Origin: Candidatus Cloacimonadota bacterium | GTDB lineage: Bacteria > Cloacimonadota > Cloacimonadia > Cloacimonadales > WRIO01 | DNA length: 50,281 nt | NCBI GenBank assembly: GCA_029553545.1 | Contig: JAKPKU010000103.1 | Coordinates: 1-50,281 of the forward strand | Direction: 5' to 3' | Part shown: piece after piece, positions 2,970 to 46,593 of the stretch | Numbering within the stretch: position 1 is the stretch's first letter | How the letters are laid out: each line of letters begins with the position of its first letter | Notes under the pieces: model-generated | Databases searched by the model: none | What the model was told of the DNA's origin: nothing | Seen by the model: the letters and a program-made list of their open reading frames with translations, nothing else | Position numbers and translations under genes: made by a program

Positions 2970-3003
2970 TATTAATCCTTAACTACAAAATAATCCTATA
3001 CTA

Positions 3004-3031
3004 ATAATCTTCAAGTATATGTTTATGTCAA
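3004..3031 (-). promoter_or_regulatory. probable sigma70-type promoter of the glycosyltransferase-surE-pcm operon
   Basis: On the minus strand a perfect TTGACA (3031-3026) is followed after 16 bases by GATTAT (3009-3004). The start codon of the operon's first gene is about 35 bases further on. The same -10 variant GATTAT is seen upstream of the tRNA at 11541, which supports the reading. Confidence 0.6.
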
Positions 3032-3341
3032 GGCAATTATGAATTTTTTATAAATGATACTTTAAAATACATGATCATAGTAAGATATCGCTTTAAAAAC
3101 TTTATAAAAAGAACTCAATAAAAAGGATTAAGTTACTATACTTCTTTTAATTAATAATTATTATATGGACTTCATTTTCAAAAACAAAAGATCATTGATT
3201 TTGTGATCTTCTAAAGAAAAGAATGTATAACATAATTTAAAATAACGTTAGAAAAAAACTAAATAATCAATTTACATGGCTTATTTTTCTCCTTTTCATT
3301 CAATATTCTGTTGACTGTTGTATACGACTATTTATCAAAGA

Positions 3342-3431
3342 GATGCCTACTTGATCACCCTTGCATTCCCCTTGCTATCTTGGAGAATGAAAGGTATTTT
3401 AATAGGAATCAAAAGGGAATGGAATGGAGAT
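3342..3431 (+). repeat. dispersed repeat B, copy 1
   Basis: Shares two exact blocks with copy 2 at the same 38-base offset: a 24-base block (3364-3387, starting CATTCCCC and ending TTGGAGAA) and an 18-base block ATAGGAATCAAAAGGGAA (3402-3419). Preceding bases GATGCCTACTTGAT also match loosely. The block folds as an imperfect hairpin with arms CATTC and GAATG. The reverse complement of its CTATCTTGGAGAATG (3375-3389) is found exactly in copy 3. Similarity to copy 2 may extend some 40 bases upstream. Confidence 0.8.
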
Positions 3432-3761
3432 TATGTAATCGCTTTTTTATAATCTTAAGACTCTTATAACAAGGCTAAATGAGATTTTGTTTACAATGCT
3501 TTTTATTTCTTATATCGATGAAGCTAACTGGCATGAAAGATCTCACTTATACTTTTATTTTACCATTTTTAGAATGCACTATTTTAGAAGCAGATATTTT
3601 TTTACATTATTCATGATCTGTTTATTAAAATAAAGCACTCACAATTAAGATGCGTTAGTCTTTTCACACGAAACAATGATTTTAGTTTTTCAAGTTTTTA
3701 GCTGATAAAAAAACACTTGACCTATTTTACAAAAATCAAATACTTGGCTTTAGGAGGAATA

Positions 3762-7564: not shown

Positions 7565-9919
7565 GTGAATAGTAGAAAGGTTAAGAGCTTGCATTACAAT
7601 AAAATAGTTAAGAATATCTCTACTATTTATCGTTCTCACTTTGCTAAAAGTCTCAGATACAAACTGATAAGCATCTCATTATTATTAGGAATAGTACTAT
7701 TCTTTACTTCTTGCGCCTATTATAATACCTTTTATAATGCAAAAAAGTACTTTGAGTCAGCTCAGAAAAAGCCACTAACCAATCGTAATAAGCCTTCAGC
7801 AAATGCCATCGAAGAGTATAATAAAGTCATCAAAAAATGTGGAGTAATTCTTACTGATTACAAGGATAGCAAATGGGCTGATGATGCACTATTCCTGCTT
7901 GCCAAAGCCCTTTATTATCGAGGCAATAATGAGCTCCAAGCCCTCGAAAAAGCAGAGGATTTGATTAAATTCTACCCTGATAGTCCATTCGTTCCTGAAT
8001 CACATATCCTCATTGCGCGTATTAATTATACGCTGTATAAAAAGGATGAGGCATTTAAGAAATTACAAGACTTTTTGCAACAGGCTGAATTTAAAGAACA
8101 TCATCCCAAAGCCCTTGTTTTACTTGCTGATTATTATATTCAAGAGGGCAAATATATCGACGCACAGATGTATTTACGCACTTTAACTGAAAAATATCCT
8201 AATTCAAAAGAATACTCGGATGCCTTCTTTCTACTGGGTAAAACTTTATTTGATAATGAAGATTACACAAACTCCTTGAATGCTTTTAAAGAGTTAAGTA
8301 AGAAGAAGATAGATAAAGAATTGAAGCTTTCAGCTAATTACTATATTGCTCTCAATCAATTTCACTTAAAGCATTATTCTGAGGCAAATAAAACAGTAAA
8401 GAAGCTCTCCAAAGATGAGTTTCGTGAAAATGAAATACCTAAATTAAATATATTAAATGCACGTATTCTGATTGAAAATGGTAATATTGAACAGGGTAAA
8501 AGTGAGCTGGAAGACGTTATTAAGAAAAACCCCAGAACCTTGTATTCAGCTGAAGCAGTGTACTTTATAGCTGAAACAAACTTCTCTAAATTACATATGT
8601 ATGAATCAGCTATCACGTATTATAATAGAGTTAAAACTGAGTCAACTACTTCGCCATATGTACAAAAAGCAATAGTAAGAAGCGCCATTGCCAGTCAGAT
8701 TATCCAACTACAAAAGCCTATTAGCGGATTACCTCTGGATGATTTGATTAATGAACAGCTAAAACTTGCTGAGTATTTTTTGTATGAACTTGACCAACCA
8801 GATTCAGCTTTGGCAATTTATCAAAAGATACCAAAACAAAAAGAACAAGTTATAGCTCTGAGAGATAGCTTTGAACAAAAGAATATTTTCCTTGAAAGCA
8901 ATGCTGATTTGGCATTAGATTCGCTTTTAGTAAAGTATAATGAGACTTTTTCTGATAGTATAAAGTGGAATGAATCTATCATGGACTCTTTACGCATTGT
9001 CTTTCAAAAATCTTTACCAGATAGCTTAAATTGGTTGAAAATTGTCAATGATTCACTGAATTATAGCTATAAAAATGCTTTCAAGGACTCTACAAGCTGG
9101 ATAATGGCTTTAAATGATTCTGTGACTGTAAAATACAAGAAGAATTTTCTTGATAATATTAGTACAAGATTAGACAGATATAATCAGGATATTGTGCAAT
9201 ATGAGCAGCAATATATACCCTTTATGAGCTTTGTCCAGGCTGTGATTTATGATTATATCAAGAAAGACCAGGATAAAGTATTTGAGCTTTTAGGGTTTTT
9301 AAATGCCAATTACCCAGAGCATAAATATACAATTGCCTTACAAAATTATCTGAATAATGAAGAAGTTGATTTCTTAACCAAAGAAGAAAGAGAAAATAAG
9401 CAAAATTACGATACGGCAATGAACATGATAAAAGATAATACTATAGAGTCATTATCTATTTTGGAGGATATTGCTGATGATGAAGATAATGAGCTTTATG
9501 TGAAGGCTAACTTCACTTTAGGGCTTACTTTTTATATCGATTTGCAAGATTCAACTAATGCAAAGCCCTACTTCAATAAGGTCTTACTTACTGCTCCTCA
9601 ATCTGATTATGCACAATTTGTAAATAAAATCTATAATGGCACATCTTTTATTATAATTGACGTACTACCTGCAGTTTTGGACATACAAAAGTACGAGAAA
9701 AGTCAAGCTGATTCATTGTCTGAAAGCACTTTTTTAGATAGCATAAATGTCACTAAAGACAGTCTACATGTTACAGAAATAATAAAAGATGAAATCAGCG
9801 AACCAGTTGAGATTAAGCCCACAAATCAAGACACAGAAGAGCATGAAGACTTGCCCTTAGATACCATTATTGACATTATCAAACCAGAAGATGAAGATGA
9901 AATTGTGAATGAAAGATAG
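7565..9919 (+). CDS. large TPR-repeat outer-membrane lipoprotein with internal 22-residue repeats
   Basis: A 784-residue exported protein. A hydrophobic stretch ISLLLGIVLFF is followed by the lipobox TSC and then YYNTFYNAKKYFE, an N-terminal phrase common in TPR lipoproteins of Bacteroidota-like bacteria. Many TPR units follow (about residues 85-445 and 560-690), with signature SANYYIALNQFHLKHYSEA and DDALFLLAKALYYRGN. Between them, residues about 458-523 hold three ~22-residue repeats of the form F-x-DS-x-x-W...-DS-x-x-x-x-Y. The C-terminal tail is acidic. The GTG start at 7565 gives a long pre-signal region and has no good ribosome-binding site; TTG at 7589, eight bases after GAAAGG, is an alternative. 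A scaffold or BamD-like assembly role is possible but not shown. Confidence 0.75.
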   Translation: MNSRKVKSLHYNKIVKNISTIYRSHFAKSLRYKLISISLLLGIVLFFTSCAYYNTFYNAKKYFESAQKKPLTNRNKPSANAIEEYNKVIKKCGVILTDYKDSKWADDALFLLAKALYYRGNNELQALEKAEDLIKFYPDSPFVPESHILIARINYTLYKKDEAFKKLQDFLQQAEFKEHHPKALVLLADYYIQEGKYIDAQMYLRTLTEKYPNSKEYSDAFFLLGKTLFDNEDYTNSLNAFKELSKKKIDKELKLSANYYIALNQFHLKHYSEANKTVKKLSKDEFRENEIPKLNILNARILIENGNIEQGKSELEDVIKKNPRTLYSAEAVYFIAETNFSKLHMYESAITYYNRVKTESTTSPYVQKAIVRSAIASQIIQLQKPISGLPLDDLINEQLKLAEYFLYELDQPDSALAIYQKIPKQKEQVIALRDSFEQKNIFLESNADLALDSLLVKYNETFSDSIKWNESIMDSLRIVFQKSLPDSLNWLKIVNDSLNYSYKNAFKDSTSWIMALNDSVTVKYKKNFLDNISTRLDRYNQDIVQYEQQYIPFMSFVQAVIYDYIKKDQDKVFELLGFLNANYPEHKYTIALQNYLNNEEVDFLTKEERENKQNYDTAMNMIKDNTIESLSILEDIADDEDNELYVKANFTLGLTFYIDLQDSTNAKPYFNKVLLTAPQSDYAQFVNKIYNGTSFIIIDVLPAVLDIQKYEKSQADSLSESTFLDSINVTKDSLHVTEIIKDEISEPVEIKPTNQDTEEHEDLPLDTIIDIIKPEDEDEIVNER

Positions 9920-13698: not shown

Positions 13699-13719
13699 TC
13701 GACCTCTTATCTTGAGCCA

Positions 13720-13746
13720 TTAATACTCTTTTGACCATTTTGTCAA
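13720..13746 (-). promoter_or_regulatory. possible promoter of the flippase gene
   Basis: Minus-strand TTGACA (13746-13741) followed after 15 bases by TATTAA (13725-13720), 22 bases before the ATG. The spacer is short, so the exact -10 is uncertain. Confidence 0.4.
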
Positions 13747-14050
13747 TCAATATATTGTTAGAGCGTAGCATAGCATCCCTTAGTCATAATAAAAAGCTTT
13801 CTAAAAGCAGTTATCATACTTTATTTAATGGGGGATGTGCTTTTCAAGTTAAAACGCATTCACATTTAATACATTAATAAAGTGACTTCATAGAAAATCA
13901 ATATAAACTGTAAAAAATACTGCTTGAAAATTGACATATTTAACAATTAAAGAGCCATGAAAAAATACAATTAATCCTATTTTATCATTTGTTTTAGTCT
14001 CATTTCATAAAAATTCTGATCATTGATGTATATTATTATTTACCAGTAAT

Positions 14051-14140
14051 ATGTCTATGCGATTACCCTTACATTCCCCTTGCTATCTTGGAGAACTTAT
14101 GGTAATCTTATAGGAATCAAAAGGGAAAGTAAAGTAGATT
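14051..14140 (+). repeat. dispersed repeat B, copy 2
   Basis: Carries the same 24-base block (14072-14095) and the same 18-base block ATAGGAATCAAAAGGGAA (14110-14127) as copy 1, with identical 38-base offset. The sequence between the blocks has drifted, which suggests that the two blocks, not the whole segment, are under constraint. Confidence 0.8.
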
Positions 14141-14391
14141 TATTAAGAGTTTTTTATAGGATAAAAAAGATTAATCTCGTTATCATTTTTTTTAAATATT
14201 GAGATGGAGTGTATGAAGCTTGTCTGATTTATATATTTAACTTTGTTTCATCTATATTAAAAGAAAACAACTATAATAACTCAAATTTTATTTAAGAGAG
14301 TAAAGTACTGAAAAAAGGTAAAATACCAATGCATTATAAAGAGCTATTAGCAACTAAAAGTCTGCATATTTATAAAATAGACAATTTATTA

Positions 14392-14418
14392 TTGACAAAA
14401 ATTACACAAAAGTATAAA
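14392..14418 (+). promoter_or_regulatory. probable promoter of the TPR-lipoprotein-tpiA-serS operon
   Basis: TTGACA (14392-14397) and TATAAA (14413-14418) with a 15-base spacer, about 40 bases before the start codon at 14458. Confidence 0.5.
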
Positions 14419-14457
14419 TTGAATTAATATAAGAAGTAATGATATTTGGAGGAAGAA

Positions 14458-18330: not shown

Positions 18331-18364
18331 AAATTTGTAATGCATAATTTTGATTTACAAATTT
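18331..18364. repeat. inverted repeat
   Basis: AAATTTGTAA (18331-18340) and TTACAAATTT (18355-18364) are exact reverse complements across a 14-base loop, directly after the serS terminator. It could be a second transcript end or a binding site. Confidence 0.5.
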
Positions 18365-18451
18365 GAAGAATAATAATTATAATAAAATATACTGCCGTAA
18401 AAAGAAAACTATACCTATAGATTACAAAAATCGTTAGATTTTACCTCATCT

Positions 18452-18478
18452 AATGTAGGGGAGAGCTGTGCTCATCTG
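18452..18478 (+). repeat. short hairpin motif A, copy 1
   Basis: AATGTAGGGGAGAGCTGTGC followed by TCATCTG matches the motif at 42101-42127 with four differences. Both contain a small hairpin GAGC-NNN-GCTC after a GTAGGG box. Confidence 0.5.
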
Positions 18479-18572
18479 AAGCAACAAGGCCGCAAGCATC
18501 ACCTGCAGCAAAGCATAGAACGAAAAGTGCTTTATCGTGTGCTATTCAAAAAAGAAAGTGCATTGTAAAAAC

Positions 18573-18743
18573 AAATCACATCTAAACCCGTTCGTAGTAG
18601 TCATCTGCGGATTTAGGTGAAAATAGTTTTCAAAAAACTCCATTTTGTAAAGCCTATATATATAGAGGGTGGTGTTTTTTAAACTCATAAATCGGCTTTA
18701 TTCTTTTAGAAGTAATTTTGATTTACTATACAACAGTCTCTCA
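18573..18743 (+). repeat. dispersed ~170-bp repeat R, copy 1
   Basis: Aligns by eye with 46400-46570 at roughly 85 percent identity over the whole length, and more weakly with the reverse complement of 41123-41287. Landmarks in order are AAATCACATCTAAACCC, CATCTGC, GATTTAGGTGAAAATAG, a GTTTTCNAAAAAC palindrome, a TATATATATAGAGGG hairpin and CTATACAACAG. No protein frame is conserved. See findings. Confidence 0.85.
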
Positions 18744-18831
18744 TAGTATATATTGTAAGGGAAATTTGAAATAATATATTTATAGTATTTTTACAAAAAT
18801 AGTGTAATAATAATATTTATTTGAATTTTTG

Positions 18832-41002: not shown

Positions 41003-41017
41003 AAGACCTCCAATGCC

Positions 41018-41045
41018 ATGATAAATTCTTAGTGTTTAGTGTCAA
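41018..41045 (-). promoter_or_regulatory. promoter of gpsA and the long minus-strand run
   Basis: Minus-strand TTGACA (41045-41040), 16-base spacer, TATCAT (41023-41018), 16 bases before the gpsA start codon; GGAGG stands between. A palindrome CAAGAA-T-TTCTTG (41043-41055) overlaps the -35 box and could be an operator. Confidence 0.65.
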
Positions 41046-41122
41046 GAATTTCTTGAAATTTACACATTACAATTGACTTTTTTGTACTTTTCGTGTGAAT
41101 AAGTCTTTTCAGAGATCCTGAT

Positions 41123-41287
41123 TTATTATTAGGCTGTAGCAGAAAACCAAAATATCTTATAAAAGGATATAGAAGATTTATGATTTGAAAAACAACGCCC
41201 TCTATATGCTGGGATTACAAAATGGGGATTAGGAAAACTATTTTCACCTTAATCAGCAGATGCCAACAATGAGCATGTTTAGATATT
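41123..41287 (-). repeat. dispersed ~170-bp repeat R, copy 3 (inverted, most diverged)
   Basis: Read on the minus strand it shows the landmarks of R1 and R2 in the same order: ATATCTAAACATGC, GGCATCTGCTGATT, AAGGTGAAAATAGTTTTCC, ATATAGAGGGCGTTGTTTTT and CTACAGCCTAATAAT. Roughly two thirds of positions match. Confidence 0.75.
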
Positions 41288-41408
41288 ATTTATTTTAACA
41301 AAGTAGGAAACTTGGTCCTCTCTTTTCATGATGTGAAAATAACTTAAAAAAAACTTGTTAAAAGTGGGAAACTAATTATATTATAAATATTCTTATAAAT
41401 GTCTATTA

Positions 41409-41492
41409 GATACCTATTTGATGCCCTTTATACTCCCTTTCATTCTCCAAGATAGGAAATAGAATGTCAAGGGAATCTCAAGGTAAAGACAG
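41409..41492 (-). repeat. dispersed repeat B, copy 3 (inverted)
   Basis: CATTCTCCAAGATAG (41441-41455) is the exact reverse complement of 3375-3389 in copy 1. Flanking parts also align when inverted: CCTATTTGATGCC and TACTCCCTTT on one side, GAATG-TCAAGGG on the other. It ends about five bases before the ribosome-binding site of the unknown ORF. Confidence 0.65.
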
Positions 41493-41508
41493 ATGAAAAG
41501 GAGACAAA

Positions 41509-42090
41509 ATGAAAGTATATTTATCAGGTGATCATAAATTTCCTAAACGCATAGGGGATGGTATATTAGCTTATTATGCAAATAATAATGTAGTGATTTT
41601 ACGCAAATCAGTGAAGAGAGCGATATTGCCTCAAAATATAAATATCAAGAATAATCAGCCATATCTCTGTGCTTTGTGGCAAGAAATGCCTTTGCAGGTA
41701 AAGACTCTTTTCACAGATTATGCAAAGTTTTTTAAGATGGACACCAAGCAAAAGAGGACACAGGGGGTGTCTGCATTTAGTATGTTTATCTACTTTATTT
41801 ATCGTGCACAGAAGCGTTTTGGTACATTGATCAAAGATATGAGTATTGACTTTGTTTTGAGCATTTTTCACATGTTTAATAGCCTGAATAAATTAATGAA
41901 GGAGTCACTCTTATACCGCCTTACAATGAAGTTGCCAACGAGATTTAGGCATCTTGTGAAGAAAAAGCAAGTCTTGGAAGACAAAGAAGAATGTTCAATA
42001 CCGAATTATTCGATTCAAAAGGTCGATGAAAAAGCGAATGATGGTGACACTTGCCAATCAGTAACTGGTCAAGACTTAGATGGGGGATAG
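41509..42090 (+). CDS. uncharacterised protein, repeat-flanked
   Basis: A 193-residue protein I do not recognise. The N-terminal KVYLSGDHKFPKRIGDGILA followed by YYANNNVVILRKS looks like a small beta-hairpin module. A lysine/arginine-rich central part (TKQKRTQGVSAFSMFIYFIY; YRAQKRFG) and a helical stretch follow, then a polar C-terminus rich in Asp and Glu. No signal peptide is obvious; one hydrophobic patch FSMFIYFIYRA is too short to be sure of. Start: ATG at 41509 with AAGGAG six bases upstream. It lies alone, pointing away from gpsA, with repeats B3 and R3 in front and A2 just behind, and could be a mobile or lineage-specific gene. Confidence 0.5.
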   Translation: MKVYLSGDHKFPKRIGDGILAYYANNNVVILRKSVKRAILPQNINIKNNQPYLCALWQEMPLQVKTLFTDYAKFFKMDTKQKRTQGVSAFSMFIYFIYRAQKRFGTLIKDMSIDFVLSIFHMFNSLNKLMKESLLYRLTMKLPTRFRHLVKKKQVLEDKEECSIPNYSIQKVDEKANDGDTCQSVTGQDLDGG

Positions 42091-46026: not shown

Positions 46027-46593
46027 TTACACTCCTCCATTATTATCTATTCATTTTAAAAGTCAAAATCTATTACTATGACATTTTGTCAAGTAAACAG
46101 TCAAAAAATTATATATACTACTAAAAACTTGAAAAGTAAACATGATTTTTATGTTATAAATAGAGGATTATTGACAATATAGTAGTGATTATCAGAGAAT
46201 ATAATTATTCAAATATCTTATAATTTTGAGAACAGTTTTTATAAATGAAAATGGATTCAGACTGTCTCATTTTAAATTAATAAAGGGTGTTGGTTAATGC
46301 ATAATTCAAATATACAGGCTTGAAGAATACTGAAAGATGACAATTGAGAGATGAAATGTAATTGATCTAATCCGATTAAAGATAATTGTTCATACAAAAA
46401 AATCACATCTAAACCCGCTTGTAGTAGGCATCTGCTGATTTAGGTGAAAATAGTTTTCGAAAAACTCCGTTTTGTAAGCCCTATATATATAGAGGGTGTT
46501 GTTTTTATTTATGATTTTTCTTTATTCTTTTATACGATATTTTGATTACTATACAACAGCCTCTAATATTAAGACTATTTGCTCTATGAGCTC
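46027..46593. other. 570-bp intergenic region with repeat R2
   Basis: Between the arcA start and the end of the small exported protein gene, both on the minus strand. It holds a TTGACA on the minus strand (46092-46087) without a good -10, AT-rich sequence, and repeat R2 (46400-46570) lying only 24 bases from the neighbouring stop codon. No coding frame is seen. Confidence 0.6.
46400..46570 (+). repeat. dispersed ~170-bp repeat R, copy 2
   Basis: The best-preserved copy. AAATCACATCTAAACCC (46400-46416), a perfect GTTTTCGAAAAC palindrome (46453-46464), the hairpin CCCTATATATATAGAGGG (46479-46496) and CTATACAACAGCCTCTAAT near the end. It aligns with R1 with two short indels. Confidence 0.85.

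Follow-up and report, generated by a model that had tools for sequence, protein, structure and literature searches.

A genus-restricted dispersed intergenic element of Cloacimonadota with an invariant core between opposed 11-bp arrays

The 50,281-nucleotide stretch analyzed here (the window; contig JAKPKU010000103.1 of a Candidatus Cloacimonadota bacterium) carries three copies, B1 to B3, of an element that we call B, a genus-restricted dispersed intergenic element with ~79 copies in the window's source genome (G000; 2.88 Mb in 268 contigs). Judging from sequence features, we give close to an even chance to the reading that B serves, in either orientation, as a dispersed site of nucleoprotein assembly for chromosome organization rather than for the control of particular genes; the regular spacing of the copies, their floating positions, their independence of gene identity, and their preference for DNA that transcription does not cross all point in this direction. 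A nucleoid-protein site was one of three suggestions of an original prediction made from the letters of the window, and it is the best supported of the readings considered here.

Anatomy and phylogenetic range of B

A search for the 20-mer around the center of B with up to 3 mismatches found 76 places in G000, split 39 to 37 between the two strands, of which 75 are real copies and 1 is a chance match inside a gene; the reversed-pattern control of the same search gave 0 matches in this genome. G000 has 79 exact matches to the 13-bp core, CTATCTTGGAGAA; G001, a genome of the same genus (Candidatus Cloacimonadota bacterium LW2 Bin 16_7, JAJBBH01), has 43; and each of the other 123 Cloacimonadota genomes has 0 to 2, which is the level expected by chance. 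A longer B pattern compared with 84,980 species recovered 42 loci, 38 of them in a single genome of the genus, and the remaining 4 lacked arms. B-like arrays were absent from a 400-kb sample of G002, a genome of the same family as G000, and from the surroundings of ten distant relatives of the B-linked protein family described below. We rejected a phage or plasmid origin of B, since the matches in viral contigs are single and lack arms, and the linked protein was not found in viral contigs, phages, or plasmids.

The features of the window that concern B are as follows.

3375..3387, + strand: invariant core of B1, CTATCTTGGAGAA (exact match; 79 copies in G000)
3309..3374, + strand: left arm of B1, 11-bp units TTCCCYTTACA, reading outward on the - strand as GGAATGTAAAG (position profiles, 75 copies)
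3388..3454, + strand: right arm of B1, 11-bp units GGAATCTAAAG, reading outward on the + strand (position profiles, 75 copies)
14083..14095, + strand: invariant core of B2 (exact core match)
14017..14162, + strand: whole B2, core and both arms (alignment and position profiles)
41443..41455, - strand: invariant core of B3 (exact core match)
41376..41508, - strand: whole B3, core and arms, the left arm abutting the start of a gene for a ~190-aa protein
41509..42090, + strand: 193-aa basic protein, a member of a B-linked paralogous family and a candidate B-binding protein
2970..3761: divergent gap with B1, 792 bp
13699..14457: divergent gap with B2, 759 bp
41003..41508: divergent gap with B3, 506 bp

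Sequence comparison bore out the two exact blocks that had been predicted for B1 and B2, which measure 24 bases (3364-3387 and 14072-14095) and 18 bases (3402-3419 and 14110-14127) and stand at an identical 38-base offset, with the small correction that the aligned register of B2 begins at 14050 and not at 14051. B3 is an inverted relative, as proposed, and the stretch that it has in common with B1 is 20 bases long (CTATCTTGGAGAATGAAAGG) instead of 15.

When 75 G000 copies were aligned on the core, the core proved asymmetric and carried 2 bits per base, i.e., it is identical in all 75, and it is identical also in 41 G001 copies. A profile of the arms alone, built with the core masked, turned up no site in G000 without the core; the invariance of the core in this genome is thus not an ascertainment artifact of the search. 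On both sides the information content drops smoothly from the core to background ~75 to 110 bp out. The arms are tandem 11-bp units, approximately GGAATGTAAAG on the core strand to the right of the core, and the left array is inverted, so that both arrays point outwards. Where the right arm has GG, CC is almost never found, and the left arm shows the reverse (CC, never GG); the units thus have a direction and are more than G+C-rich sequence. Identity at a lag of 11 bp is 0.43 to 0.52 within the arms versus 0.29 to 0.32 in distant flanks, and the G+C content oscillates with a period of 11.0 to 11.1 bp in the right arm and 10.3 to 10.8 bp in the left arm, a rhythm that reaches from about -75 to +80.

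In G001 the same core is flanked by different variants of the unit, such as (CATCCCGTTAC)n in one arm and (GTAGTAGGAGT)n in the opposite arm. Between the two species identity is complete in the core, 0.66 in the innermost left arm (and 0.66 or less throughout the arms), and 0.28 to 0.30 in the flanks, which is background; on this comparison, the arms have re-evolved around an unchanged core. The proposal that conserved blocks with variable spacers reflect protein- or RNA-level constraint holds for its protein half, in that B is a constrained, protein-site-like element built on an 11-bp DNA lattice, and fails for RNA: the folds of B1 to B3 on the core strand give z-scores of -1.23, 0.01, and -2.08, none of them strong. 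We also rejected a structured RNA because the only Rfam match above the gathering score in the window is a tRNA, and because the left and right arms in G001 are often different units that do not pair. A palindromic unit of the repetitive extragenic palindromic (REP) type was ruled out by arm composition and location, and intrinsic DNA curvature by predicted values of 1.13 for B versus 1.08 for shuffled sequence, near those of the far flanks.

The dimensions of B raise the question of DNA gyrase or another wrapping topoisomerase, for which B would be a strong site with arms that wrap the enzyme and a core that is cleaved. The Escherichia coli gyrase motif spans 130 bp, with a central part and two ~47-bp periodic arms modeled at 10.7 bp per turn (PMC6379681); B, like this motif and the strong gyrase site of phage Mu, has a center and two helically phased arms over ~130 bp, and its length and 11.0-bp rhythm to about -75/+80 match the motif. 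The spacing of B copies also matches topological-domain sizes of 10 to 400 kb (PMC6907758). The gyrase motif, however, is described as degenerate (PMC6379681), whereas the core of B is invariant, and the strand-specific, base-level repeats of the arms (GG never CC) are not needed for a pure bendability code. Gyrase cleavage accumulates on the downstream side of transcription units, rRNA operons among them (PMC6379681), in contrast to the preference of B for divergent gaps; gyrase is universal, but B is absent from all other Cloacimonadota searched; and no intrinsic curvature is predicted. On this analysis a gyrase site would be very unlikely.

Placement, spacing, and turnover of the copies

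Gene-context and synteny analyses covered 1.33 Mb of G000 and 0.52 Mb of G001 and relied on a home-made gene caller, with refined calls for the gap-orientation counts in G000. All real B copies are intergenic. Of the 25 spacings between copies on the same G000 contig, none is shorter than 9.76 kb. If copies were placed uniformly on these contigs, 11.5 spacings would be expected below this value, and none of 200,000 draws reached the observed minimum; when placement was restricted to gaps of at least 100 bp, 8.6 of 19 spacings were expected below 9.76 kb, and 0 of 20,000 draws reached the minimum. The six spacings available in G001 have a minimum of 19.1 kb. Neighbor pairs on the same strand and on opposite strands both obey the minimum in G000, and since inverted neighbors are thus spaced as well, we rejected deletion or recombination between direct copies as the cause of the spacing. 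A site that is polar with respect to replication or transcription was likewise rejected, as the core strand is unrelated to GC skew (44/77), to the gene strand (43/77), and to the neighboring copy (13 same, 13 opposite).

A second dispersed repeat of ~190 bp (80 to 86% identity) lies in the window at 18338-18748, 46295-46571, and, inverted, 41233-41301; G000 holds 149 candidates for this family, of which at least 40 were scored as copies. Its copies, unlike those of B, can lie 0.2 to 6.5 kb apart, and some of them adjoin B.

That B lies between divergently transcribed genes, as had been noted for the three window copies, is correct for these and does not extend to the whole family: B gaps in G000 comprise 33 divergent, 27 tandem, and 5 convergent cases, versus 28, 51, and 16 among other gaps of at least 300 bp. 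The enrichment in divergent gaps for which the original prediction called is nonetheless present (33/65 versus 28/95; Fisher p=0.008), and the copies are not random with respect to gene orientation. This enrichment favors the idea that B is a bidirectional or distal regulatory site through which one global regulator acts on the flanking operons, as does the arrangement at a family of linked genes considered in the next section. The bidirectional form of this idea, which the original prediction had offered, is weakened by the half of the copies in tandem or convergent gaps (24 to 27 and 5 to 7, respectively), by floating polarity, and by a median distance of 334 bp between B and gene 5' ends; a regulon, moreover, gives no reason for regular spacing.

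Comparison of the two species, which share 240 reciprocal best hits in the portions of the genomes that were read (69% median identity in the first, smaller set), bears further on this point. Among G001 gaps whose two neighbors could both be traced, none of the 11 that contain B is syntenic, compared with 5 of 6 other gaps of at least 300 bp (p=0.001), and gaps below 100 bp are syntenic in 145 cases and not in 2. G000 gaps show the same direction without significance (1 syntenic and 5 not with B; 5 and 4 for other gaps). No B gap has both flanks conserved, and copies turn over between relatives: two orthologous gaps differ in the presence of B, which sits inside an extra 320 to 510 bp further out, while the gene-proximal ~100 bp is conserved on at least one side with or without B. 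No clean target duplication was seen in these two gaps, whose flanks have diverged. Only 13 of 38 G001 gene ends that face B also face B in G000 (p=0.06 versus other gaps), and at the 13 ends that face B in both species the polarity of the core is the same in 5 and opposite in 8, i.e., random. Floating positions and polarity together indicate that individual sites come and go, whereas the core, the density, and the spacing of B are kept. They also disfavor a regulatory site, since gene-proximal DNA is conserved without B and polarity toward the same gene is not kept, except possibly at the genes of the linked family; we consider such a site quite unlikely.

The coincidence of B gaps with synteny breakpoints could instead mean that B is a site-specific recombination site at which crossovers in the core shuffle chromosome blocks between copies; such a site would be expected to have an invariant core. 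In three cases the two gene ends on either side of a G001 copy each face a different B copy in G000, which suggests exchange at B, although three such two-sided joins are not beyond expectation if the ends are independent. A crossover in the core, however, would keep the polarity of the flanks, contrary to the 5 same and 8 opposite cases, and recombinases are few: G000 has one tyrosine and one serine recombinase match, and the latter is absent in G001. With polarity lost and few recombinases, we rejected recombination between B copies as the cause of the breakpoints, and we regard a recombination site as highly improbable.

The linked protein family

The 193-aa protein encoded next to B3 belongs to a family of ~190-aa proteins with 17 paralogues in G000 and 3 in G001. 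All 14 G000 loci that were read by sequence have a B core upstream, always in the same polarity, and in 11 of them B lies 54 to 88 bp upstream in steps of ~11 bp. Two further loci identified by coordinates bring the total to 16 of 17 genes with B upstream, at 54 to 285 bp overall (p~5e-28 versus random placement), and it is this fixed arrangement that speaks for a regulatory role of B at these particular genes. The genus version of the protein is basic (isoelectric point of about 10.2), versus 5.9 for an acidic distant relative that was tested. Similarity to the HMG box stays below threshold (best E 0.0027; 4 of 28 members, the window protein not among them), and an AlphaFold model (predicted local distance difference test score, 75) gave a best VIA Z of 4.2, to an unrelated phage-island repressor. 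On this sequence evidence, the family is a candidate for the B-binding protein, and no more.

Two members of the ~190-aa family, encoded at 226-672 on contig C261 of G000 and at 4602-5048 on contig C91 of G001, both have 64% identity to the window protein and open frames of equal length, and the former may be a recent transfer or lie on a misbinned contig. A multi-copy ~150-aa family of more distant relatives, present in 62 of 125 Cloacimonadota genomes with up to 24 copies per genome, shows weak, sub-threshold HMG-box similarity (locus L213:1357-1809 and the phylum-wide relatives L311-L320). A third, GC-richer short repeat (GCAGCGAAGCGAGGACC / GGTCCTCGCTTCGCTGCGGGTTAGGTAC) is found near several B or ~190-aa loci, namely, downstream of ~190-aa genes at L156, L168, L169, and L079 and upstream of B on G000 contigs C100, C228, and C268.

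Another explanation is that B is a non-autonomous mobile element with target immunity, moved by a transposition machinery that would keep away from existing copies and in this way set the minimum spacing; the ~190-aa gene together with B would be the longer form. It would account for the appearance and disappearance of B at orthologous gaps, for arms that are homogenized within species, for the mutual exclusion of copies within 10 kb, and for the multi-copy state of the B-gene unit itself. Against it, B lacks sharp ends, terminal repeats, and target duplications, and its conservation is central and fades gradually; the 11-bp units that make up the arms differ from copy to copy; 75 copies show practically no decay of the core; and the second dispersed repeat of G000 comes within 0.2 to 6.5 kb of itself. 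The 17-sequence alignment of the family (A1) has no invariant Asp or Glu and thus no DDE-type transposase signature. A derivative of a miniature inverted-repeat transposable element or insertion sequence was rejected for the lack of sharp ends, terminal inverted repeats, and target duplication, even though copies do turn over, and we consider a mobile element with target immunity unlikely.

B as a candidate chromosome-organizing site

If B is a nucleoprotein site that organizes the chromosome, a sequence-specific protein would dock on the 13-bp core, and further subunits would load outwards, lined up head to tail along a single face of the helix with one subunit to each 11-bp turn. The resulting large complex could act as a boundary or anchor between chromosome domains of 10 to 45 kb, with about one B per domain, and the ratio of 33 divergent to 5 convergent gaps fits an avoidance of read-through transcription at such a site. 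As a guess, the binding protein would be the linked, basic, genus-specific ~190-aa family, which might then control its own genes through the adjacent B copy. The question of what divides bacterial chromosomes into topological and contact domains is listed as open (PMC6907758), and a sequence-defined set of ~79 spaced sites with a near-invariant core and positions that turn over freely would make it directly testable; if the reading is correct, B would offer a bacterial parallel to boundary elements that coincide with rearrangement breakpoints.

Several observations weigh against this reading. The spacing rule was derived from same-contig pairs only, in an assembly of 268 contigs. Three G001 copies have one change in the core and one has a more altered core, and G001 has two core-less 11-bp arrays, one 131 bp and one 263 bp away from an intact core. 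The three G001 members of the ~190-aa family have no adjacent B; the window protein had no Pfam, PHROG, NCBIfam, or PDB sequence match above threshold; the AlphaFold model described above had no PDB structure match with E<=0.001; and two AlphaFold runs in all yielded no reliable fold match. Finally, a boundary role alone leaves the arrival of new 130-bp copies unexplained, so that a copying mechanism must also exist. The two core-less arrays, at C69:7274 and C86:5657, stand beside intact B copies and look like satellites or remnants.

A stronger version of the chromosome-organization reading, which we hold to be possible and rather doubtful, is that B represents a new class of bacterial boundary element, defined by outward polymerization of a protein along the divergent 11-bp arrays, nucleated at the invariant asymmetric core, a density of about one per domain of 10 to 45 kb, positions and polarity that drift freely in evolution under a conserved spacing and core, and a lineage-specific, multi-copy, DNA-bending binder that would control its own genes. 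Known systems resemble B in part. The repeats of the R1 parC centromere all run in one direction. R1-type parC consists of two arrays of 11-bp direct repeats (PMC9426499, PMC4949242) and is the closest architecture, since B also has two ~11-bp arrays, and the ~190-aa genes might be controlled from B as ParR controls its own operon from parC. B differs in its opposed arrays, with the left inverted relative to the right, its ~79 chromosomal copies, and its invariant 13-bp core. A search for the ParM family StbA_N found no match in G000 or G001, and none in any control genome either.

Proteins of the OmpR and PhoB kind also use 11-bp direct repeats, and their tandem operators, like B, place these on one face of the helix; B, in contrast, has two opposed arrays around an asymmetric core, is remote from conserved gene-proximal DNA, and has a position that is not tied to genes. 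The matS and parS sites are short palindromes that occur in a single macrodomain or only around the origin. They share with B that many conserved sites lie on the chromosome independently of gene identity, whereas B is long, arrayed, and present on most of the larger contigs sampled. REP sequences and bacterial interspersed mosaic elements (BIMEs) are located at 3' ends and avoid divergent gaps. They are dispersed intergenic repeats, as B is, and have been proposed as barriers to supercoil diffusion (PMC6907758), and BIME-2 is bound by gyrase (PMC6379681). B, however, lacks the palindromic hairpin unit, favors divergent over 3' gaps, and shows overdispersion instead of clustering.

Elsewhere in the window, the gene at 7589-9919 encodes a TPR protein with a sub-cut-off match (77 bits; cut-off, 250) to PorW/SprE of type IX secretion.
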